Shown: in pieces, positions 25,350 through 38,494 of the stretch
Position numbering within the stretch: position 1 is the first letter of the stretch
Layout of the letters: the number at the start of each line of letters is the position of its first letter
Source of the DNA: Oscillospiraceae bacterium
GTDB lineage: Bacteria > Bacillota > Clostridia > Oscillospirales > Oscillospiraceae
Length of the DNA stretch: 58,599 bases
Direction: 5' to 3'
NCBI GenBank assembly: GCA_902791215.1
Contig: CADAUZ010000014.1
Coordinates: forward strand, 1-58,599
Program-made: the position numbers and the translations under genes
The notes under the pieces: generated by a model
What the model saw: only the letters and a program-made list of their open reading frames with translations
Database searches by the model: none
What the model was told of the DNA's origin: nothing

Positions 25350-26456
25350 TCATGGTTTCTTTAAGCCGGGGCGCAGGCGGACCAGCACTTTGTTCTGCCG
25401 GTCGGCCTCGGGGTCATAGCTGTAGCTGATTTCCTCCGCCATGCCCTCCAGCATTTTCAGCGAAAGCTCGTTGTCGGTAGTGCGCGGGTCAAAGGCTTCG
25501 CCGCCGTAGCTGACCGTGACGGTGGTGCTTTCTTCCTCCACCGCATGCTCGATCACGACGCGGATATGGGGCTGCGGCATGCGGGGCAGGAGGATCTGCT
25601 GCACCAGCTCCTCGATCACAAGGCGGATGTGATACCGCGCTCTGTCGAAGATTTCATTCTGCATGCAGTAGCGGTCGATTTCGCTGCCGAAGCCGATGAA
25701 GTCGAAATCGACGGTATCGACATTCAGCTCCAGCACCCTGAGCTTTTTGACGAAGCGGCGCGTCAGCTCCTTGCTCGGGTGGTCGAAAATCTGCTCCGGC
25801 GTGCCTTCCTCATAGATCCCGCCCTGGTCCATATAGAATACGCGGTTTGAGATTGCGCGGGCAAGGTGCATGGAATGGGTGACGATCATCATGGTCTTCC
25901 CGCTCTTGGAAAGCTCCCGGATGACCACCTGCACCTCGTCCACCGTGGTGGGATCGAGGGCACTGGTCGGCTCGTCGAGGAGGATGATCTCCGGGTCCAT
26001 GGCGAGGGTGCGGGCAATGGCGACACGCTGCTTCTGCCCGCCGGAGAGCTCATCCGGGTAGCTCAAAGCCTTCTCCGCGAGGCCCACCATACGCAGAAGC
26101 GCCATCCCCTTGTCGTAGGCCTCCTGGCGGCTCATGCCCTTTAAGTCCACCGGGGAGAACATGATGTTCTCAATGGCCGTCATGTGTCCGAAAAGGTTGA
26201 AGGACTGGAAGACCATGCCCATGCGCTGGCGGATGCGGCATACGTCGCAGTGCTTGTCCGTGATCTCGTCCTCCCCTATCCAGATCCGTCCCTCCGTGGG
26301 CTTTTCCAGCAGATTGATGCAGCGCAGGAGTGTACTCTTGCCCGTACCCGAGGGGCCGATGACCGCGATCACATCGCCTTCATGGATTTCAACCGAGACA
26401 TCCTTGAGCGGCGTGACATCGGGATATTCCTTTTTCAGATGCTCGATTTTAATCAT
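25350..26456 (-). CDS. Amino-acid-type ABC ATPase fused to a degenerate GHKL-like domain
   Basis: Residues 1-240 are a polar amino acid transporter ATPase (GlnQ type): Walker [11 protein letters not shown]-loop [10 protein letters not shown], signature [14 protein letters not shown], Walker [13 protein letters not shown], switch histidine VTHSM. Normal GlnQ proteins end here. This one continues for about 125 residues that resemble an RsbW-like histidine-kinase-type ATPase fold: IRLVIEELV, then [12 protein letters not shown], then a hydrophobic helix [13 protein letters not shown] and the strand [10 protein letters not shown]. The N-box asparagine appears as Gln (EELVQQIL) and the DxG aspartate as Tyr, so ATP binding there is doubtful. 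The start overlaps the end of the permease fusion by eight bases. The tail may be a regulatory or partner-binding domain. The GHKL assignment is by pattern only. Confidence 0.82.
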
Positions 26457-28740
26457 CGGTCTTCACCCCTTTCAGGATATGCTCTTTGCTGCGCTTCTTT
26501 GGGTCGAGCCACTTTTGAATCCGTCTGAGCACGATATTCATGATCCCCTCAAGCGCAAAATAGATGACCGTGACGGCAATCAGGGGGAAGAAGGCCTCAT
26601 AGGTGCGGCTGCGCACGATGTCGCCCATCTTGGTCAGATCCTGCACCGCGATATAGCCCACAACAGCCGTCGCTTTTAACAGTCCCACGATCTCACCCCG
26701 GTACGCAGGCAGGACATGGGGAATGGCCTGGGGCAGGATCACGCGATAGAAGGTGCGTCGGTTGGAGTGGCCGAGGGCGTAGGCCGCTTCATACTGGCCC
26801 CGGTCGACCGCCCCCACGCCCGTTTTCAGAAGTCCGAACACCGCGGCCCCGAAGGTCAGCGTAAAGCCGATCACCGCCACCGCGATGCCGCTGATGGAGA
26901 CGCTGCCGAATATGACATAATACAGAATCATCAGCAGGACCACCATCGGCATACCCTGTACCAGCCACATGCCCGCGCGTGTGATCGCGTTTGCGGCACG
27001 GTTTCCGTTTCGGCAGAGCATGAACACCAGAAATCCCAGCATCGTACCGAAGAGGATCGAGAGCATCGTGATGAGAAGCGTGGTCCAGACGCCTTGCAGG
27101 AACAGCTTCCAGCGGTTTTCACGGATAAAGGTCTTCTCAAAGCTTGCGGCAATGCCGCTCAGAAAATCATTTTTCCCCCTGTCCCCGTCGGCGGGCGCGT
27201 CGTTTTCAGCGTCAGGCGCTGTCAGATCCGACGTGCGCACCGCCAGCACGATCCCGCCGTGGGCCGTCGGCGTGGAGAACAGGACCTGCTCCTCCCGCTC
27301 CGGCGTCACGTTCATGTCGGTGGTGAAGTCATATTTGCCGGACTGGAGCGCCGGGATGCGCCCCGCGAAGTCCACGTCCCCCAGCTCCAGGGTGTAGCCC
27401 CTGTCCCGGCAGAAGCGCACGACGAGGTCGATGTCATAGCCTACGTTCTGCCCGTCCTTGACATAGGACCAGGGCATATCCGTGGCGGTGGTGACGACCC
27501 GGATCGTTCCGTTTTCGCCCGTCAGGCCGGACATGTCCACGACCTTCCGGTCCTCGTCCGCGCCCAGCCAGATATCCTCCAGCTCCTGCATGGTACCGTC
27601 GGCCCAGGCCTTTTCCAGAAACGCATCGAGTTCTTTGCAAAGTGCCGCGCTCTTCTCGTCGTTCTTGCGGAAGGCGAAGCTGTAGTTATTCTCGGTGAGG
27701 CTTTCATGGATGTAATCGATCTCCGGCTGTTCGGCGCGGAGGGATTTTATCTCCGGCCCGTCCCCGAGAAAGGCGTCGATCTTCCCGGTGAGCAGGGCGG
27801 TCACACAGTCCGGGTAGGAATTGAAAAGGAGATACTCACTGTCAGGGAAATAGGTATGGGCCGCATTCTCCATCAGCGGGCCGACCAGCACGCCGATGCG
27901 CTTGCCGTTGTAGTCCTGCCAATGGACATCCGGCGCCTCATCGGATACCGTATCCATCCCGGTCTTGCGCACAATGATCCCGCTTTCCTGTCGGAAAAGC
28001 GGATCGGAAAAACGCAGCGCCTCGGCACGTTCCGGCGTGACCTGGAGGTTGGCCGAGATAATGTCCGCCTTCCCGCTGTGGCACGCCGCCACGATGGAGC
28101 CGTAATCATAGATGTCAAAGGAGACATCGGCGTCCAGCCAGGCCGCCAGCCGATAGGCAAGCTCGATATCGTAGCCCATCAGTTCCGAGCCCTTGAAGTA
28201 GCTGTATGGCTCCACAATGCCGGTGGTGCCAACCGTGAGATGGTACTTTGGAGAGCTCGGGAGCGGGATTTCCGGCATGTCTTCCACACGCTGAATTACC
28301 CAGCGATGATAGATCTCATCCAGTGATCCGTCCGCCCGCAATGACGCAATGAACGCATTGACCTGGTCCGCAAGATCGGGGATCTTCGAGACATCCGAGA
28401 TGCCCAGCGCCACGGAGAAGCTGTCGCCTACCGTCTGGTCCAGTACGCGAATCCCGGCCTGCCCGTTTGCCACCGCGATCTCCAACTGCTTTTTGTCATA
28501 GATGTAGCAGTCGATTTTGCCCTGCGCGACAGCCGTGCAGCCGTCCACCTTTTCAAAGTGGAAGACCTCTGCCTGCGGGCAAAGCTCCCGGACGATCTGC
28601 TCCTGTATGCTTCCGGTCGCCACGCCGATGCGCAGCCCCGGAGTCGTGAGGTCAAGCTCGGTCTCCGCCCCGGCCAGCGCCGGAAGCGTCAGTGTTAGGA
28701 GCATCAGCAGCGCAAGGAAGAATAGAAATCGTCTTTTCAA
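26449..28740 (-). CDS. Fused amino-acid ABC solute-binding (tandem) and permease protein
   Basis: One 763-residue polypeptide joins substrate capture and transport. A signal/anchor segment ([20 protein letters not shown]) is followed by a partial binding lobe (about 30-150), a complete family-3 binding domain (about 165-400: [27 protein letters not shown], with [20 protein letters not shown]), another partial one (about 410-500: [19 protein letters not shown]) and a HisM/GlnP-type permease (about 530-745: five membrane segments, the loop [22 protein letters not shown]). I chose the TTG at 28740 since AAGGGTG lies just upstream and the signal peptide then starts cleanly. It overlaps the ATPase gene by eight bases, so the two form a complete transporter. 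Ligand unknown; polar amino acids are likely. Confidence 0.88.
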
Positions 28741-28823
28741 GTGATCACCCTTTTTCATCGTTTCCCCGAAACATGCACACGCTAGCGCAGTTTCCCTCTG
28801 TCTACTGTATTTGCGCCATTTTG

Positions 28824-28852
28824 ATTTTATCATGAATGCAAACGGTAGACAA
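28824..28852 (-). promoter_or_regulatory. Promoter of the ABC fusion operon
   Basis: On the minus strand TTGTCT (plus 28847-28852) and TAAAAT (plus 28824-28829) with a 17-base spacer. Confidence 0.6.
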
Positions 28853-29195: not shown

Positions 29196-32100
29196 ATGAA
29201 ACACATACAACACAGCGCGGGCAGAGCGTGCTTGAGCCTGGTGCTGTTGTTCATACTGATGACGCAGCTCGGGTGCGCCGCGCTGGCAGACAGCAGCAGC
29301 CTTCATGCGGATCGGCACATCTCTGTTGATATCGTGAACCGGACAGAGGGGTATTCCGCGGTGCTGTATGACAGCATGAGCGGGCTGCCCACCTCCGAGG
29401 CCAACGCCATCGTCGAGACCGGCGACGGCTTTATCTGGATCGGCAGCTATGCGGGCCTGATCCGTTACGACGGCAATACCTTTGAGCGTATGGATTCCAC
29501 CAACGGCATCTCCAGCATCAAATGTCTGTTCGTGGACGATCAGGACCGCCTCTGGATGGGAACGAATGACAACGGCGTCGCGGTCATGGAAAAGGGCAAA
29601 TTCCGGATGTGGAGCAAGCTCGACGGCATGAAATCGGCCCACACCAGAGCCATCACACAGGGCACGGACGGGACGATCTATGTTGCGACGACCTGCGGCA
29701 TTGTCATGATCGATCCCGACGATCATCTGAGCATGATGGAGGAAGAGCTCATCGCCGAGGCCAACATGCGCGACCTGCGTGCCGGGAGCGACGGGCTCAT
29801 CTACGGTATTACCAATTACGGCGACCTGATGACGATCAAGGACGGGAGGCTGCAAAGCTATCTGAGCGCGGCAGACACTATCGTCGGCGGCGTCGGGTCG
29901 ATCCTTCCCGACCCGGAGGAACCGGGGAAGCTGTATTTTGAAGGCGCCGACTTCAAGTTCCATCATGCCCGGCTGGGAGATACGCTTACTGAGATCGAAA
30001 CCATCGACATCCAGCCGCTCAGCTACGTACAGAAGATCGAATACATTGACGGCAGGATCTGGATCTGCAGCACCTACGGCATCGGCGTTATTGACCACGG
30101 CGACTTTCACCTGCTGGAAAATCTGCCCATGGATGACAGTGTGGGCAGCATGACGATCGACTATCTCGGCAACCTGTGGTTTACCTCCACGCGCCAGGGC
30201 GTCATGAAGATCGTGCCGAACCAGTTCTCCGATCTGTTTGAGCGCTTTGATCTGCCGAAGAGTGTGGTGAACACCACCTGCATCTGCGACGACATGCTCT
30301 TTATCGGCTCGGATACGGGCCTGACGGTCCTCGATGCAAACGGCCCCGTGGCAAGTCTGCCGCTGAAGAGCGCCGTGACCGCGTCCGGTAAGGATCTGGA
30401 AGCGGACGACCTCATAAAGCTGCTTGACGGATGCCGGATTCGTTCCATCATCCGCGACAGCAAGGGCCGGGCATGGATCTCCACCTGGCGAAAGCTGGGC
30501 CTTTTGCGCTACGATCACGGCGAGCTTGTGGCCTTCACCTCCGAGGAGGGCCTGCTCGGTACGCTCAACGGCAGCCTGCGCGCGATTGCCGAAAAAGAGG
30601 ACGGGACGATCCTGGTCGCGCTCTCCGGCGGCGTGAATGTCATTCGGGATGACCGTCTGATCGGCTCCTACAGCGACAAAGACGGCATCAGCAATGTGGA
30701 GAGTCTCACCGTTGAGGCAGGCTTGAACGGCGAGATCGTTCTCGGCAGCAACGGCGGCGGCATCTATATCATTGATGAATCCGGCGTAAAGAACATTGAT
30801 GTCGAAGACGGTCTTCCTTCGGATATCGTCATGCGCCTCAAGCGGGATGTGAAGCATCAGGTCGTCTGGATCGTCACCAGCAGTGCCATCGCTTACATGA
30901 CGCCGGACTATCACATTACAACAGTAAAAAAGTTCCCCTATACCAACAACTTCGATCTATACGAAAACAGTGAGGGGGATATGTGGGTACTCAGCAGCAA
31001 CGGCATTTATGTGGTGCCCGCAGCGGAGCTGCTTGCAAACGAAGAAATCAGCCCCGTATACTACAGTCTCGCAAACGGTCTCCCCTGCATCGCCACGGCA
31101 AACTCCTACAGTGCCCTTGACGAAAACGGCAATCTGTATATTGCCGGCAGCACCGGCGTATGCAAGGTCAATATTGACGAGCCCTTTGAGGATGTCAGCG
31201 ATCTCAAGGCGATCGTCCCCTACGTGGAGGCGGACGGAGCGGCGGTCTACCCGGACGCGGACGGCTCCTTCACGATCCCGTCCGGCACCCAGAAGCTGAC
31301 GATCCCCAGCTTTGTCTTCAACTATTCCCTGAGCAATCCCCAGGTGAGCTACCGGCTGGAGGGCTTTGATCACAGCAGCACCACCGTCACCCGCAGTGAC
31401 ATGGTCCCCGTGGATTACACCAATCTCCACGGCGGCACCTATCATTATGTGATGCAGCTCAAGGACGCCATGGGGCGCGGCAGCAAGGAGGTCTCCGTTG
31501 AGATCGTCAAGGAAAAGGCCTTCTACGAGCAGGTTTGGTTCTATATCATTGCCGGCCTTGCCTCGGTGATCCTGCTGGTCTGCGCGGTGCGCTTTTACGT
31601 CCGCAGGAAGACCCGCGCGCTGGAAAAGAAGAACCAGGAGACCATGGCCTTCGTCGGCGGCATTACCGAGGCCTTTGCAAAGGTCATCGACATGAAGGAC
31701 CGCTACACCAACGGCCACTCCTCCCGCGTGGCAAAGTATACCGCCATGCTCTCAAAGGAGCTGGGGTATGACGATGAGACGGTGGAGAAATATTACCGTA
31801 TCGCGCTTTTGCACGATATCGGCAAGATCGGCGTGCCGCCCGAGGTGCTGAACAAGCCCGGCAAGCTCACGGACGAGGAGTTTGAGATCATCAAATCCCA
31901 CACGACGAAGGGCTATGACGCGCTCAAGGAGATCACCATCATGCCGGAGCTGGCTATCGGCGCCGAGGCCCACCACGAGCGGCCGGACGGCAGGGGCTAC
32001 CCCAACCATCTGAAAGGGGAAGAAATCCCCCGCGTCGCCCAGATCATCGCGGTGGCGGACTGCTTCGACGCCATGTACTCCAACCGCCCCTACCGCAACC

Positions 32101-32267
32101 GCATGAATTTCGACAAGGTCGTCTCCATCATCAAGGAGGTTTCCGGCACACAGCTTACCCCCGATGTGGTGGATGCCTTCCTGCGTCTCGTGGACAGAGG
32201 CGAGCTGCGCGATCCCGACGATCACGGCGGCGGCAGCGTGGAGGAAGTGGACAACATTCGGAAATAA
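29196..32267 (+). CDS. Beta-propeller/YYY sensor with cytoplasmic HD-GYP c-di-GMP phosphodiesterase
   Basis: A 1023-residue membrane sensor. A signal segment (LSLVLLFILMTQLGCAALA) leads to an extracellular region of about 650 residues built of two-component propeller repeats (DGFIWIGSYAGLIRYDG, DRLWMGTNDNGVAVM, GRAWISTW and others), then a Y_Y_Y-type domain (VSYRLEGFDHSSTTVTRSDM ... GTYHYVMQLKDAMG), one membrane helix at about 784-806, and an HD-GYP domain. The HD pair is H873-D874 (LLHDIGKIGVP) and the GYP motif HHERPDGRGYP starts at about 926; both are complete, so c-di-GMP hydrolysis is likely. This receptor type usually sits on a histidine kinase, and in Bacteroidetes senses glycans; joined to HD-GYP it would turn an outside signal directly into c-di-GMP loss. 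The gene converges on the glucan synthase. Confidence 0.92.
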   Translation: MKHIQHSAGRACLSLVLLFILMTQLGCAALADSSSLHADRHISVDIVNRTEGYSAVLYDSMSGLPTSEANAIVETGDGFIWIGSYAGLIRYDGNTFERMDSTNGISSIKCLFVDDQDRLWMGTNDNGVAVMEKGKFRMWSKLDGMKSAHTRAITQGTDGTIYVATTCGIVMIDPDDHLSMMEEELIAEANMRDLRAGSDGLIYGITNYGDLMTIKDGRLQSYLSAADTIVGGVGSILPDPEEPGKLYFEGADFKFHHARLGDTLTEIETIDIQPLSYVQKIEYIDGRIWICSTYGIGVIDHGDFHLLENLPMDDSVGSMTIDYLGNLWFTSTRQGVMKIVPNQFSDLFERFDLPKSVVNTTCICDDMLFIGSDTGLTVLDANGPVASLPLKSAVTASGKDLEADDLIKLLDGCRIRSIIRDSKGRAWISTWRKLGLLRYDHGELVAFTSEEGLLGTLNGSLRAIAEKEDGTILVALSGGVNVIRDDRLIGSYSDKDGISNVESLTVEAGLNGEIVLGSNGGGIYIIDESGVKNIDVEDGLPSDIVMRLKRDVKHQVVWIVTSSAIAYMTPDYHITTVKKFPYTNNFDLYENSEGDMWVLSSNGIYVVPAAELLANEEISPVYYSLANGLPCIATANSYSALDENGNLYIAGSTGVCKVNIDEPFEDVSDLKAIVPYVEADGAAVYPDADGSFTIPSGTQKLTIPSFVFNYSLSNPQVSYRLEGFDHSSTTVTRSDMVPVDYTNLHGGTYHYVMQLKDAMGRGSKEVSVEIVKEKAFYEQVWFYIIAGLASVILLVCAVRFYVRRKTRALEKKNQETMAFVGGITEAFAKVIDMKDRYTNGHSSRVAKYTAMLSKELGYDDETVEKYYRIALLHDIGKIGVPPEVLNKPGKLTDEEFEIIKSHTTKGYDALKEITIMPELAIGAEAHHERPDGRGYPNHLKGEEIPRVAQIIAVADCFDAMYSNRPYRNRMNFDKVVSIIKEVSGTQLTPDVVDAFLRLVDRGELRDPDDHGGGSVEEVDNIRK

Positions 32268-32286: not shown

Positions 32287-32330
32287 AACAGGGCCGGAAC
32301 TGGCAGTACACTGTCAGTCCCGGCCCTGTT
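32287..32330. terminator. Bidirectional terminator between HD-GYP and glucan synthase genes
   Basis: AACAGGGCCGG at 32287-32297 pairs with CCGGCCCTGTT at 32320-32330, and ACTG/CAGT extend the stem after one mismatch. T-rich sequence (GCTCTTATTTT) follows on the plus strand. The two genes converge on it, five bases from the synthase stop. Confidence 0.8.
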
Positions 32331-32334
32331 GCTC

Positions 32335-35300
32335 TTATTTTGTGGTTCTCGCCACGCGATGGGCGATGTTCTGCCACAGGTGGGGGATCATGCCGAAATC
32401 CTTTTGCAGCGATTGCGGCAGTGTGGGGACGCGGTCATACAGGATCTCCCAGTATTCATAGCGGTCATTGCCGAAATCCAGGATCTCGATGGTATGTGTG
32501 CGGCTCTGGCTGCGGTGAGCCTGCCGCAGCCCTGTGACCACTCCGCGCAGCTCGGCCCGATGGCCGTTAAATTCGAGCTTCACCCGCACATGATCGCCGA
32601 TGCCGGGAGACACGCCCTCATCCAGAAACACGGTCATGCAGTGTTCATTGAGCTGCGTGGTGATGCCGGCGGAGCTGCCTGTGCTGCCGTACAGCACATC
32701 TACGCTTACAGGGATGAAATCCTGCACCTTCACGATCTCCCCGTCATCATCACGCCCGTCTACCAGGAAAATGGAGAGGATCAGATAGTAGAGATTCCGG
32801 ATCAGCCAGAACAGCAGGATCAGCAGACTGACCACATGCGGCCTGTCCATGATCCAGAGCATACGGACAATGCCGATCACCGACAGCAGTGTCAGGATCA
32901 GAAACGGCAGCATGGAGCGGATATCAGCGCCCTGTTTTTCGGTCTTGCGTGTCTTGTCCGTCACCTTGAAGGCCGAAAGGCTGATGCCCAGAGACTCCTT
33001 GATGATCGGGACCAGCAGGTGCGGCATGACGCTGGTTTCATAGATGCCGCTCCACTTGTGCGAGATGGTCCGCTTGCTGCACAGGATCAGGCACACATCC
33101 TGCATGATATACATCGGCAGCCAGAAAACCAGCAGTTCCAGCCAATTGCACCGGAAAACCGGCAGAGCGAAAACGGCAAACAGCAGCGGTGAGAGGATAT
33201 AGATCAGGTTTTTGATCGGGGAGTACCAGTAGACCACGGAGCTCCAGTAGCTGATTTTCTGGTCGAGAGTGAGGTTTTTCCGCTGCCAGATTTTGAGCTG
33301 TCTCGCTGTTGCGATGACACCCCGGCCCCATCTGGTGCGCTGCTGGATATGTTCTTTGTAGGTATGGGGAGTTTGACCGCTGGCAAGGGGCTCGGGAAGG
33401 GCGAGGCTCACATAGCCGTGCGACTCGATCAGAAGTCCCGTTGCAAAGTCCTCGGTGATTGACTCCGTGTAAAACCCGCCCACGTCCTCCAGGGCCTTTC
33501 TGGCGATCACCGTGTTGGAGCCGCCGTAGATCACACTGTTGGTGGAGGTCTTGGCCGGCTCTATGGTGCGGTAGAAAAAGTCCTGCTCGTTGGGCGCCCG
33601 CTTCTCGGAATAGAGCGCATACTGAAACACATCCGGGTCATAGAAGCACTGGGGCGTCTGCAGCAGGCCGAGTGGCATGCGCTTATCCTCGGGCAGCTTC
33701 CTGTTGCGCTCCTCGGCATCCACAAAGTAGGGGATGGTTTTCAGAAGGAAGTCGCTTTTCGGGATCATGTCCGCATCCAGCGTGACAACATATGGCGCGG
33801 AAGTCAAGGACAGGGCGTGGTTCAGATTTCCGGCCTTTGCCCCCTTGTTGTCCGGGCGGTCAAAATAGCCCACGCCCATCTCTTCGGCAAGCGCGCGCAT
33901 TTCGCCGCGGCGGTTGTCGTCACAGATCCAGATATGTACCTTCTTAGGGGCAGGGTATTTCAGGTGCACGCAGCCATTTACCGTCCTGCGCAGCAGTTCG
34001 GTGGGCTCATTATAGGTGGCGATGAAGATATCCACGTCCGGGTAGGCGTCCTGCGCGATTTCCGGCAGGGGATGTTCTCTCATCCCGAACAGGCTCCGGA
34101 ATAGGACGAGCGATTCCGCAAAGCCGAGCAGCTCCACGGCCAGCAGCAGGATATTGGCGGCAACGGGCAAAGCGCCAAAGCCCTTCGGGATGGAATAGCG
34201 GACACGCCAGCAGAGATAGATCAGGGTGCAGACGATACTGAGCATCAGCGCGCACGCTGACAGCAGCCGCTCCTTTGTAAACGGTTTCTTTTCGCTCCCA
34301 TCCCCGCCGCGAAGAAGTTCATCATACGTGCGCTTTTTCTTTTTTGTGACGTGGGACGCAAGTCCGGCCACAGCCGAAGACAGCAAGACCGTCAGAATAC
34401 CGATGCCGCAAAAAGCGGGCCAGGCGTGCAGGGTGCCGGTCCCCCGCTCTCCAAGCGCCGAGGACAGGTACGACCAGAGCTTGGACAGGCGTCCCTTTAC
34501 CAGCGTGTCCGCCGGGTTGGAGATGCTCTTCGGGTCTTTGCCTGAGATCAGGGCTTTGACCCACCGGCCGCTTTCCGTGAGATCGTCATCGCGTATGGGG
34601 TTCTCCGTCTCAAAGCCGGGCCGGAACATGGCAGAGGATTCATTTTTATCGGAAAAACTCCATACGGCGTAGCCGATACTTTGTTGATTCAGATAATCAA
34701 ACCACTTGGCAGCCATGGCGAAATTGAGGTCGCCGTCGCCGCTGGCCTCGCTGAGGCCGCATTCGGTGACGAAGACCGGGAGCCCGCTGTCGACCGCAGC
34801 CTTCAGTTCATGCAGCAGTCCATCATTATGCGTAGCCGCGTAGAAGTGCAGCACCGCCATCACGTTGTCATAGGGCACCGGGCGAAGGACGGCACTGCCG
34901 AGGTTCTTGTCATATACCGGTGTGCCGACCAGGATGACAGAGTCCGGGATCTGTCTGCGGATGACCGGGATCACCTCATCACAGTATGCGAGGATATCCG
35001 TCCAGCTTGTATCGCCGTTGGGTTCGTTGCAGATTTCAAACAGCAGGTTCGGTACATCCGCGTACTCCGAAGCGATAAGCTCAAAGAAAGCCTTGGCTTC
35101 CTCCACATGTTCGTTGGGATTGCCGTACTCGAGGATGTGCCAGTCCACGATCACATACATATCCGAGGCAATCGCCGCGTCGATCCCCTTTCGCAGCAGC
35201 GTCAGGCTCTCCTCCTCATGGCCGCCGCAGTATTGAGAGGCATACATGGCAAGACGGACGAGGTTTGCGTTCCATTCCGACGAAATCTGCCGAAAGAGCG

Positions 35301-35550
35301 CTTCATTGACGAAATCCGGGAACCAGGTGAGCCCATGGGTGCTCACGCCGCGCAAGGCCACAGTCCGCCCTGCTTCATCCGCAAGCTTTGTCCCCTCCAC
35401 ATGCAGCCTGCCGTTTTCGGAAGGGCGGGCCGTGAGTGCTTTTTGTGCCTGCGCCGCATCGCTCGGTGACGGCGCGGCGGCTTCTCCGCAGACTGACAGA
35501 GCAGACAGGAAAAGCATCAGGCACAAAAGAAGAGATATCGTTTTTTTCAT
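32335..35550 (-). CDS. GH5 endoglucanase fused to a cellulose-synthase-type GT2
   Basis: A 1071-residue single polypeptide. A signal peptide (MKKTISLLLCLMLFLSALSV) is followed by a GH5 glucanase domain (about 45-330) with acid/base E176 in ICNEPNGD and nucleophile E263 in VFVTECGLS. A membrane helix near 376-398 and two more lead to a processive GT2 domain: DVDIFIATYNEP, DDNRRG, TLDADMIPKSDF, the TED motif SITEDFATG and QQRTRWGRG, the marks of cellulose synthase. More helices and a C-terminal beta-rich domain (about 955-1050) placed like BcsA PilZ follow, but I see no RxxxR or [DN]xSxxG c-di-GMP motif. In known clostridial ccs loci the GH5 (CcsZ) and the synthase (CcsA) are separate proteins. 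The topology puts the glucanase outside at the polymer exit. GGAGG and AAGGA precede the ATG. Confidence 0.92.
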   Translation of the reverse strand: MKKTISLLLCLMLFLSALSVCGEAAAPSPSDAAQAQKALTARPSENGRLHVEGTKLADEAGRTVALRGVSTHGLTWFPDFVNEALFRQISSEWNANLVRLAMYASQYCGGHEEESLTLLRKGIDAAIASDMYVIVDWHILEYGNPNEHVEEAKAFFELIASEYADVPNLLFEICNEPNGDTSWTDILAYCDEVIPVIRRQIPDSVILVGTPVYDKNLGSAVLRPVPYDNVMAVLHFYAATHNDGLLHELKAAVDSGLPVFVTECGLSEASGDGDLNFAMAAKWFDYLNQQSIGYAVWSFSDKNESSAMFRPGFETENPIRDDDLTESGRWVKALISGKDPKSISNPADTLVKGRLSKLWSYLSSALGERGTGTLHAWPAFCGIGILTVLLSSAVAGLASHVTKKKKRTYDELLRGGDGSEKKPFTKERLLSACALMLSIVCTLIYLCWRVRYSIPKGFGALPVAANILLLAVELLGFAESLVLFRSLFGMREHPLPEIAQDAYPDVDIFIATYNEPTELLRRTVNGCVHLKYPAPKKVHIWICDDNRRGEMRALAEEMGVGYFDRPDNKGAKAGNLNHALSLTSAPYVVTLDADMIPKSDFLLKTIPYFVDAEERNRKLPEDKRMPLGLLQTPQCFYDPDVFQYALYSEKRAPNEQDFFYRTIEPAKTSTNSVIYGGSNTVIARKALEDVGGFYTESITEDFATGLLIESHGYVSLALPEPLASGQTPHTYKEHIQQRTRWGRGVIATARQLKIWQRKNLTLDQKISYWSSVVYWYSPIKNLIYILSPLLFAVFALPVFRCNWLELLVFWLPMYIMQDVCLILCSKRTISHKWSGIYETSVMPHLLVPIIKESLGISLSAFKVTDKTRKTEKQGADIRSMLPFLILTLLSVIGIVRMLWIMDRPHVVSLLILLFWLIRNLYYLILSIFLVDGRDDDGEIVKVQDFIPVSVDVLYGSTGSSAGITTQLNEHCMTVFLDEGVSPGIGDHVRVKLEFNGHRAELRGVVTGLRQAHRSQSRTHTIEILDFGNDRYEYWEILYDRVPTLPQSLQKDFGMIPHLWQNIAHRVARTTK

Positions 35551-35693
35551 TGGTTCCTTGCACCTCCGTGACTTGTGCGGTTTTCCGCAGGATCGGACAA
35601 GCAGGCTCTGATATCCTGATTATACCAGCCCGGCACTCCGTTTTCAACATTTTCGGCCTGATGATCTCTGTAAATGCAGTATTGCCCGATTGC

Positions 35694-35735
35694 ATAATCA
35701 TCGGCCGGGTCCCGAAGGACTCGGCCGATGATTAT
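35694..35735. terminator. Stable hairpin between MscS-type and synthase genes
   Basis: ATAATCATCGGCCG at 35694-35707 pairs with CGGCCGATGATTAT at 35722-35735. The T-run follows only on the plus strand (GTTTTGT), so for the minus-strand genes it is more likely an mRNA end or attenuator than a full stop. Confidence 0.62.
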
Positions 35736-35779
35736 GTTTTGTCGGTATCCGCTTGTAACAGGGCTGCGCGCAAACACGG

Positions 35780-38416
35780 TCAGGTTTCGCTTTCCGGGCT
35801 GCTTTCCAGATCGTCTTCCTGCTCCTGCAGTTCGAGCTTGCGGCTCATGTTCAGGACGCTCCCGACATGGCTGTTGTTGAGGATCACGACATTTCCGTCC
35901 GCGTCGGTGATCTCGGTGGTGCGGATGCCCATATCGGTGACATCGCCCGTGACGCCGGAGACGCTCACATGGTCGCCCACATGAATGGACCCCTCCAGCA
36001 TCATGAAGAAGCCCGCGAGCAGGTCGGAGGCCATGCTCTGGGCGCCCATGCCGACGGCGATGGAGAGGACGCCGGCCGAGGCAAGCAGCGTCGTGGTGTT
36101 CACACCGAACATGGACAGGATGCGGAAGAGCAGGAAAATGCAGGCGCTGTAGCAGATGACGCTGTCGATGAGTCTGGTGATGGTCCTGGAGCGCTTGTTG
36201 AGGCGGCTTTCCACGATCTTCAGCATTGCCCGCGCGAAAAACACACCGCACAGAGTACCGGCCACGATGAGCGTCGCCGCCCAGATGGAGAACAGATGGA
36301 CGCCCCTGTCCCACTTTCCGTCGAAGATGAAGGTGAAGGCGGGCCACATGGCTCCCGCGGACAGTATCGCCGTGTATATCGCCAAAAGCGACAGGAAGAT
36401 CACATAGCCGTTTGCAAAAACCATCAGCGAATTTTTCCTGCCGGGCTGACTTGCCAGCTTCGCGCGGATGTCCTCGACAAGCCGGGCGCACAGCACACCG
36501 GCCCCCAGCAGGTAGACCGCCAGCAGGGCCAGCACCCCCACGATCAGCCGCACGCTGATGACGCGCACCTCACGGTCCGGATTGGAGGGAACGATGTACA
36601 TGAGACTCCTGCCGTCGTGCGAGCTGCCGGAGATATACACGTTCTTGCCGTTATATGTCGAGAAGCCCTCGATCTCGGTCCCAGGCTCATAGTTGGGCAG
36701 ATGGTCTGCCACCCGCTGGCCGATCATTTTCGCATCGGTGTGTGCGACGAAGCGGCCTTCCGCGTCGTCGACGACGGCGGCGGCATGCCCGTCCTGCACA
36801 ACGAAGCCGTTGACCGCGCTTTCGATGCTCTCTCCGTCAAGCTCGCTCTGCGGGGTCTTCGCGTCAAAGACAGACAGCAGGAAGCCGTCCGGCTGTCCTT
36901 CGGCGTCCTTCAGGAGGATCGCCGCGCCGAGCTGGGGCTGCCCGGTATAGGGGTCGGCCGCAGGCCCCGCCAGCGCTTGGGGGTAGCCCAGCAGTACCGG
37001 GCGGTACTCCTCGCTGAGGTTTTCGCCGACAGCAAAGCCGGTATAGCTGTTGCTGGCGGCAAGCTCCCGCCCGCTCCGGTCAAAGAGCATGAGGTACTCC
37101 GTCCCGGCAAGCTTGTTGAGCTCGGCAAGGCCGCCGTGGGTCAGGTATTCCGGGTGCCGCGTCACGAAATCCGCCAGGGTCTGCGCGCGTGTGCGGTATA
37201 TGTCCGAATAGTTCTGGCGGATCAGCTCTCCCTGCTGCTCGTGCCAGTCGATCTCATATTGAACGGTCTCCCGTTTCGCCGTGGCGACCATGGCATTGAC
37301 GGAGCGGTTTTCCAACATCATCAGCATCACGGCGAAAAGGCCCGTGACGATCAGCACCGAGATCATGCCCGGCATAAGCGTCCGGACTGCCTGTTTCCGG
37401 AAGGCCGCGCCCCGGCTCTTGTCGGGCGCCTCCTTAGACAGGCGGCGAAACACATAGATCTGGAACAGGATCATGCCCAGGGCAATGATGGCCGTAAGGG
37501 TCATGGCAGTGTAGTTGCCCGAGTGCTCTAGGGTGTCGAAGCTGTCCATCAGCATTACGTCAGCATCGTACTCCGGGTAATGGAGCAAGACGGCCAGGCA
37601 GCGATTGCCAAGCAGCTTGATCTCCTTGCTGGAGAGATTGTCTCCTCTTGACCGGAAGCTGCTGCTATCATCAAAGACGCTGTTCAGCTCTCCGATGACC
37701 CTGTCGATCTCTTCCTGGGTCAGGCCCTCCCGGGGATAAAACGCGAGGGTTCCGTCGCCCGTTCTGGCTGCGGCGGCGCCATCTGTCCCGGACAGCGTGC
37801 GCTTGAGTATGTCGGGCCAGTCGCCGAGCGAGTGGTACAGTTCCACCAGGGCCGGGCAGGGAAACGCGAAGACCAGGCTCCGCTTTGTGGAGGCGAGGGG
37901 CTGCTTGGCAAGAAAGCTGCCTTCCTCCGTCGGCTCCCCGTCTGGAGAGGGGACGAGATAGAGCGTCAGCGCAGGCGTGCCCGCCTCAATGCCCTCGAAA
38001 TGCGCCCGAAGAGATTCCTCCAGCTTGGCAGGGTCGGCGGAGGCAAGGAGCCGCCCGCTGCCGTCGAGCAGGTAAACGCCGGCGGCGGAAACCGTGCCGC
38101 GCACCAGCTCCAATCTCTCGGTGTCAGCAAGGTCGTCCTCTTCCGCGTACAGCTTCGCTCCCAGCTCGCTGCGGGCCAGAGCATCGCTTTCATACACGCG
38201 GGTGCGCGTTTCAAACTCCTGCCTGCGTTTCTCCACGATCTCCGGTGTTTCCAGGATAAGCTGGTCCATCATCTTCAGCCCGTTGTAGTAGCTGAGGACG
38301 GACATTGTGAGAAACACGATCACCGCGATGATCAGAAAGGCAAGCACGGTAAAGCCGATCAGCTTTATCCCGCTTTTTTCCCGCAGAGGGACTTTGATCT
38401 TTTCAATTGGATTCAT
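35780..38416 (-). CDS. MscS-family channel with two extracytoplasmic sensor-like domains
   Basis: 878 residues. A first membrane helix (about 20-42) is followed by a large outside domain (to about 295), two helices (about 305-325 and 345-370), a second outside domain (to about 635, with Cache-like features such as YLMLFDRSGRELAASNSYTG and GRSLMYIVPSNPD), further helices, and a C-terminal MscS pore: the helix GVNTTTLLASAGVLSIAVGMGAQSMASDLLAG and beta domain GSIHVGDHVSVSGVTGDVTDMGIRTTEI. The protein ends soon after the beta domain in an acidic tail, without the usual alpha/beta cage. The ATG at 38416 has AGGAG seven bases upstream. It lies upstream of the glucan synthase in the same direction. 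A signal-gated rather than a simple osmotic channel is possible. Confidence 0.85.
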   Translation of the reverse strand: MNPIEKIKVPLREKSGIKLIGFTVLAFLIIAVIVFLTMSVLSYYNGLKMMDQLILETPEIVEKRRQEFETRTRVYESDALARSELGAKLYAEEDDLADTERLELVRGTVSAAGVYLLDGSGRLLASADPAKLEESLRAHFEGIEAGTPALTLYLVPSPDGEPTEEGSFLAKQPLASTKRSLVFAFPCPALVELYHSLGDWPDILKRTLSGTDGAAAARTGDGTLAFYPREGLTQEEIDRVIGELNSVFDDSSSFRSRGDNLSSKEIKLLGNRCLAVLLHYPEYDADVMLMDSFDTLEHSGNYTAMTLTAIIALGMILFQIYVFRRLSKEAPDKSRGAAFRKQAVRTLMPGMISVLIVTGLFAVMLMMLENRSVNAMVATAKRETVQYEIDWHEQQGELIRQNYSDIYRTRAQTLADFVTRHPEYLTHGGLAELNKLAGTEYLMLFDRSGRELAASNSYTGFAVGENLSEEYRPVLLGYPQALAGPAADPYTGQPQLGAAILLKDAEGQPDGFLLSVFDAKTPQSELDGESIESAVNGFVVQDGHAAAVVDDAEGRFVAHTDAKMIGQRVADHLPNYEPGTEIEGFSTYNGKNVYISGSSHDGRSLMYIVPSNPDREVRVISVRLIVGVLALLAVYLLGAGVLCARLVEDIRAKLASQPGRKNSLMVFANGYVIFLSLLAIYTAILSAGAMWPAFTFIFDGKWDRGVHLFSIWAATLIVAGTLCGVFFARAMLKIVESRLNKRSRTITRLIDSVICYSACIFLLFRILSMFGVNTTTLLASAGVLSIAVGMGAQSMASDLLAGFFMMLEGSIHVGDHVSVSGVTGDVTDMGIRTTEITDADGNVVILNNSHVGSVLNMSRKLELQEQEDDLESSPESET

Positions 38417-38494
38417 AATCAATCTCCTGTATAAGCCTGTAACAATGGGATGCCGTCAGTCTGGCCGCAGGCCGGGCTGACCAAAGGGGTATTT

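Follow-up and report, generated by a model that had tools for sequence, protein, structure and literature searches.

Neither in bacteria nor in plants is it settled why cellulose synthases are accompanied by a cellulase or what couples the two, and the locus described here asks whether one polypeptide could both make and cut the polymer. It lies in a 58,599-nucleotide stretch from an Oscillospiraceae bacterium (assembly GCA_902791215.1, contig CADAUZ010000014.1, positions 1 to 58,599; the whole stretch is called the window), in which a reading made from the letters alone (the sequence-only reading) had proposed a single-chain cellulase–cellulose synthase, with a GH5 glucanase fused ahead of a GT2 domain. 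Sequence, family and structure support this as the best reading. We put at roughly 60% the probability that the protein is a self-contained beta-1,4-glucan (cellulose) synthase with a built-in endoglucanase, probably constitutively competent and not gated by cyclic di-GMP (c-di-GMP) in the way of BcsA. A natural single chain fixes the hydrolase:synthase ratio and makes the role of the hydrolase testable through two glutamates in one protein. The gene and its parts are:

32335–35550, minus strand: GH5–GT2–PilZ-like fusion gene, 1071 amino acids including an N-terminal signal peptide
35485–35541, minus strand: hydrophobic core of the signal peptide, residues 4-22 (hydropathy; model helix 3-21)
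34543–35421, minus strand: GH5 catalytic domain, residues 44-336, predicted to be extracellular (Pfam, alignment, structure comparison)
34360–34437, minus strand: extra N-terminal transmembrane anchor, about residues 372-397, then lysines (hydropathy; model helix 372-405)
32758–34290, minus strand: BcsA-like core, residues 421-931, with transmembrane helices, GT2 domain and gating loop FKVTDK at 861-866 (profiles, alignment, model)
32398–32757, minus strand: PilZ-fold domain, residues 932-1051, without RxxxR and [DN]xSxxG at their places (alignment, structure comparison)

The gene runs from an ATG at 35550 to 32335 as a single open frame without an internal stop. Its product begins with the signal region and continues through the GH5 domain, the anchor helix, two further transmembrane helices, the GT2 domain and about four further transmembrane helices to a C-terminal beta-barrel domain. 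Pfam recognises Cellulase GH5 at residues 58-302 (E 1e-53) and GT2 families over 504-801, and the GT2 motifs lie at DD544-545, D592/D594 (DxD), 699-701 (TED) and Q737-R740-W741 (QxxRW); with these and a gating loop of the form FxVTxK, the synthase half is of the BcsA/CcsA type. The GH5 half carries both glutamates, E176, which we take to be the acid/base, and E263, presumably the nucleophile. In a structure model of the full chain (predicted local distance difference test score 84.3, predicted template modelling score 0.71), BcsA, plant CesA and GH5 structures are all matched inside one chain; model and domain search together find GH5, BcsA-type GT2 and a PilZ fold in it, so the architecture that the sequence-only reading had drawn, down to its DxD, TED and QxxRW motifs, stands. 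The number of helices, together with the positive loop that follows the first one, suggests that the GH5 domain lies outside the membrane and the GT2 and PilZ-like domains inside.

A scan of genome contigs confirmed 230 relatives, and among the best 80 of these 230 loci, kept for counts, 42 have one open reading frame (ORF) of at least 1000 amino acids spanning both halves; one copy is split into separate ORFs (L041), two are frame-broken (L056, L060), two are partial at contig ends (L058, L059), 27 have GH5 alone and six have separate GT2 and GH5 genes (L061, L062, L064, L065, L067, L068). A search with the whole-length protein returned 1040 proteins at E <= 1e-20 (7995 candidates scored), of which the best 120 measure 1016-1130 amino acids and all carry PF00150 with GT2 families, while 0/120 carry PF07238; some database members are named ‘cellulase family glycosylhydrolase’ or ‘cellulose synthase (UDP-forming)’. 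In the genus of one Fibrobacter metagenome-assembled genome (MAG; L053), 16 of 61 sampled genomes match, comprising the four known carriers and 12 of 57 others, with one in-frame stop recorded for two of the 16. The split L041 is what a frame joining two genes through sequencing or assembly error could appeal to; the 42 single-ORF loci, the Fibrobacter-genus matches and the 120 fused proteins out of 120 listed refute such an artefact, to which we give practically no chance. For one sequence pair, the window and L016, the ratio of non-synonymous to synonymous substitution rates (dN/dS) is 0.07-0.10 in the three domains and 0.07 over residues 426-930, compared with 0.27 in residues 337-371 (17 changes) and 0.49 in residues 372-425 (33 changes); the fusion junction is thus translated sequence under weaker purifying selection than the domains.

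We aligned 164 fusions, namely the window protein, 43 locus ORFs and the 120 listed proteins (two of the loci, L005 and L017, apparently represent one contig). E176, E263, DD, TED, the Q, R and W of QxxRW and the F, V, T and K of the gating loop are present in all 164, and D592/D594 in 163, the remaining one having a gap there. As a cellulose synthase the window protein scores 344 bits against NCBIfam CelA (residues 429-1008), far above PgaC (51) and NodC (21), and we therefore rejected a poly-N-acetylglucosamine (PgaC/IcaA) or chitin (NodC) synthase; hyaluronan synthase was not compared directly. The grouping with chitin synthases that could have overturned the proposal is thus not seen.

The C-terminal domain has the PilZ fold by structure comparison of the model, in keeping with a BcsA/CcsA-type protein. 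Neither RxxxR nor [DN]xSxxG stands at its place in any of the 164 fusions, versus both in 124 of 124 CcsA-type relatives (counted by position after a conserved GR), so what had been noticed in one protein holds for the family. Plain pattern matches occur within the last 150 residues (RxxxR in 49/164 and [DN]xSxxG in 12/164), none of them at the aligned place. Conserved instead are GRDxD.E and G.TT.LTEH, with H970 in 163/164 and E969 in 159/164 fusions where CcsA has its motif; R933, G962 and E969 are common in CcsA-type proteins too and hence not specific to the fusions. Motif loss is not unique to them either: an Enterococcus gilvus GT2 lacks both motifs, and the GT2 proteins of L064, L065, L067 and L068 lack the PilZ region. 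Loss of the BcsA R580-E371 salt bridge was considered as a fusion-specific event and rejected, since E371 aligns with H729 but CcsA-type proteins mostly have T there. Because the c-di-GMP motifs are gone, the synthase would not be gated in the BcsA way, and a PilZ fold kept without them offers a natural test of the non-sensing role of this domain.

In the mechanism that we propose, the cytosolic GT2 domain would polymerise UDP-glucose (uridine diphosphate glucose) and the glucan chain would leave through a BcsA-type membrane channel. About 35 residues (337-371) would tether the GH5 domain, on the outer side of the membrane, to the extra N-terminal transmembrane helix beside the synthase; there it could meet the emerging chain and trim or release it, while the PilZ fold would be retained as a structural part of a synthase that has lost its c-di-GMP motifs.

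Several observations weigh against this reading. The CelA score falls short of the curated equivalog cut-off of 699 bits, and for that reason the product could be a mixed-linkage or other beta-glucan. A synthase half making (1,3;1,4)-beta-glucan or another beta-glucan, with the GH5_2-like half trimming its beta-1,4 stretches, is unlikely in our judgement: it has a precedent in RiGT2 of Romboutsia, BcsA/CcsA-like, which makes mixed-linkage glucan and in which the plant switch motif is no marker (according to the accessible part of PMC10374906), but the fused clade adjoins ccs-locus CcsA, for which the accessible part of PMC7710045 proposes cellulose (RiGT2 is not on our tree). As for regulation, single motif positions survive in a few fusions (S968 in three, G971 in three), GGDEF matches are found in 13 of 15 fusion genomes, and the genome of the window (G000) has 29 of them alongside 0 Pfam PilZ matches. 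Of 41 loci with a neighbour, five have a GGDEF or HD-GYP gene immediately next to the fusion (HD-GYP in the window and L016, GGDEF in L053 and L069, a GGDEF motif only in L042), and genes with these motifs occur within the fetched flanks of four more (L026, L040, L045, L054). BgsA, moreover, binds c-di-GMP without a predictable domain (PMC5567048, in its accessible part), so that absent motifs do not prove absent regulation. Finally, most genomes used are MAGs, in which absences may be gaps.

Taken together, the adjoining HD-GYP and GGDEF genes, the near-fixed H970 and E969, and BgsA are what a still-switched synthase would draw on, its PilZ-fold domain binding c-di-GMP or another ligand through GRDxD.E and G.TT.LTEH. 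We consider this rather unlikely, given that no fusion shows either motif in full at its place, that two of the 15 fusion genomes have no GGDEF match, and that R933, G962 and E969 are shared with CcsA-type proteins. The two Fibrobacter MAGs with an adjoining GGDEF gene (L053, L069) encode there a GGDEF protein of 457-458 amino acids, downstream of the fusion on the same strand.

Where such a chain came from can be approached through trees of its halves. The GT2 tree joins 65 fused tips in one clade with support 0.952, or 0.943 with three ccs-type synthases added; the tips are the window, the split L041, 43 locus ORFs and 20 of the 120 listed proteins. Closest to this clade stand L108 and L109 (node 1.0), followed by L110 (0.999), all with both PilZ motifs in the alignment (and a Pfam PilZ hit for L108 and L110) and with MBOAT and/or DHHW/ALGX genes at their ccs-type loci; L110 practically amounts to the ccs operon already described, as its GH5 matches CcsZ 6UJE with 611 bits. 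A fused ccsZ-ccsA was nevertheless rejected for the GH5 half, which in the window scores only 34 bits to 6UJE versus 276 to 6GJF and 243 to B. subtilis 3PZT; the GT2 half remains CcsA-like. The fused GH5 resembles, by these sequence scores, Bacillus Cel5A-type (GH5_2-like) cellulases, a label given because the structural relatives 1EGZ and 1TVN are titled GH 5-2; the subfamily of structural relatives nearer than these two is our assumption. In the GH5 tree, with a root of our choosing and moderate inner supports, the 65 fused domains fall in one clade (0.946) that also includes two GT2-less Oribacterium proteins and leaves the GT2-linked GH5s of L061 and L062 outside. Across 64 fusions, GH5 and GT2 distances correlate with r 0.86 (0/1000 permutations as high). 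The simplest account is that a GH5_2-like cellulase was fused once to a CcsA-type synthase and that the two halves have descended together since.

The two Oribacterium proteins (L066, 335 amino acids; L071, 341) resemble cellulase halves that have come loose from the fusion. Separately, in Solobacterium (L064, L067, L068) and Saccharibacteria (L065) a short BcsA-like GT2 gene of 515-532 amino acids directly adjoins a separate GH5 gene; the order of the two varies, and these GT2s fall outside the fused clade.

By record title, carriers are mainly Lachnospiraceae, Oscillospiraceae/Ruminococcaceae and other Clostridia, with Erysipelotrichaceae/Solobacterium (L022, L023, L030) and two Coriobacteriaceae MAGs (L018, L049); the search for further GH5–GT2 fusions thus reached a family that extends beyond Clostridia to four Fibrobacter MAGs (L050, L052, L053, L069) and Treponema sp. 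C6A8 (L051, not labelled as a MAG). Contamination is unlikely for the Fibrobacter carriers because the fusion stands on contigs of 0.69 and 1.02 megabases in two of the genus and the four fusion genomes have 8-11 Fibro-slime matches each. The distribution is patchy: the fusion occurs in 1 of 24 other genomes sampled from the window's own genus, and among 391 genomes sampled from its class a full-length match (E <= 1e-150) was found in the window only, with three others over the GT2 part alone. Fibrobacter and Treponema fusions form one subclade of the GT2 tree (1.0) with Treponema nested within it (0.983), which suggests transfer between phyla. Plasmid carriage was rejected: a tblastn search of PLSDB returned 522 records, in none of which a single place covered 80% of the query, and the best plasmid record among the matches listed reaches about 40% identity over the GT2 part. 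One Fibrobacter genome (G062) holds, besides its full fusion, a second, partial copy about 270 kb away (L111; contig C2, about 96-98 kb), a single 444-residue frame matching residues 642-1067.

Ten of the 42 fusion record titles name a ruminant gut site, and the window bacterium probably lives in one. Together with the likeness of the GH5 half to secreted cellulases and the GT2-less Oribacterium proteins inside its clade, this would suit an enzyme that cuts external plant cellulose, the fusion serving mainly to anchor a cellulase in the membrane and the synthase making an unrelated product, or a polymer by which the cell clings to its substrate. We hold this to be improbable, as the synthase region is strongly constrained in the one pair compared and the distances of the two halves co-vary. 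Returning to the synthase that cuts its own product, a fuller history can be offered tentatively, at somewhat less than even odds: a one-gene, partner-free make-and-cut cellulose machine would have arisen once, when a CcsA synthase acquired a GH5_2-like cellulase. On that branch the c-di-GMP motifs would also have disappeared, and the gene would then have travelled horizontally, unaccompanied by others, among gut Firmicutes, Fibrobacter and Treponema, its PilZ fold today being structural or answering to a different signal.

Among known systems, BcsA-BcsB with BcsZ shares the BcsA fold, GT2 motifs, gating loop and PilZ fold and likewise includes a hydrolase, but BcsZ is a separate GH8 protein, and the fusion has the extra N-terminal transmembrane helix and GH5 and is without the c-di-GMP motifs; none of 15 chosen fusion genomes matches BcsB, in a search where the E. 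coli control matches and B. subtilis matches too. In plants, the membrane-tethered GH9 endoglucanase KORRIGAN works with cellulose synthase; it is alike in its tethering and differs in glycoside hydrolase family and in being a separate polypeptide. In the ccsZABHI system too a GH5 glucanase accompanies the synthase, and the fusion GT2 core groups with its CcsA. This system differs in that CcsZ and CcsA are encoded by separate genes, that the CcsA-type proteins compared keep both PilZ motifs where the fusions have neither, and that CcsZ is GH5_25 (accessible part of PMC7710045, which proposes the CcsA product from the specificity of its partner CcsZ) whereas the fused GH5 is GH5_2-like. No MBOAT or DHHW gene lies in the window flanks scanned, the search for these genes being confined to those flanks. 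RiGT2 of Romboutsia ilealis is likewise a Gram-positive synthase with a PilZ domain and is active without c-di-GMP, but it keeps RxxxR and NxSxxG and makes mixed-linkage glucan (PMC10374906, in part); the term GH5 is absent from the main text of that paper. BcsAB and BcsZC are also gene fusions within cellulose machinery, of other parts, and no hydrolase–synthase joining is named in the accessible parts of PMC7112194 and PMC9693552.

Single sequences of the family are already in databases, and the GH5–GT2 architecture, or any cellulase–synthase fusion, was not met in a title or abstract start among the literature matches listed, which mostly exclude subscription papers; the words ‘fusion’ and ‘fused’ are absent from the main text of the paper defining ccsZABHI. 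Since Fibrobacter degrades cellulose, a cellulose synthase there would come as a surprise, and no title among the matches listed announces one.

Around the gene, the window holds:

35619–35647, minus strand: promoter-like site TTGAAA-17-TATAAT, 11 of 12 positions, with TG before the -10
35563–35567, minus strand: GGAGG ribosome-binding-like site, 12 nucleotides before the ATG (read from sequence)
35693–35736, no strand: 44-base-pair near-perfect inverted repeat between the MscS-like gene and the fusion (sequence scan and RNA fold)
32288–32329, no strand: GC-rich inverted repeat between the convergent HD-GYP gene and the fusion (read from sequence; not reported by the repeat scan)
29196–32267, plus strand: convergent downstream neighbour, a Reg_prop sensor with an HD-GYP-type domain (profiles; neighbour only)
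35780–38422, minus strand: upstream neighbour, an MscS-type channel of 880 amino acids with a dCache-like stretch (dCache below curated cut-off; neighbour only)

With this arrangement the fusion gene may form its own transcription unit. The promoter-like site is weak, because three such sites were found versus 2.0 expected by chance. Folded with its flanks, the repeat at 35693-35736 upstream of the fusion gene reaches -38.7 kcal/mol (z -7.6), and it is not a plain terminator for the MscS-like gene, as it has no U-run on the minus strand; the repeat at 32288-32329 is possibly the shared terminator of the convergent genes. Riboswitch control was rejected, as the window gave no Rfam match and eight fusion loci gave only one tRNA; nor was a recurring partner gene found, the largest neighbour cluster touching 14 of 43 loci at scattered distances and the next 7. 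Judged by its domains, the Reg_prop/HD-GYP neighbour is probably a c-di-GMP phosphodiesterase, and the MscS core with a dCache-like stretch is an unusual sensor–channel combination. The farther flanks carry ABC transporter, DUF308 and esterase genes, among them a 794-residue ABC transporter protein (26449-28833, minus strand) with two SBP_bac_3 stretches ahead of its permease domain.

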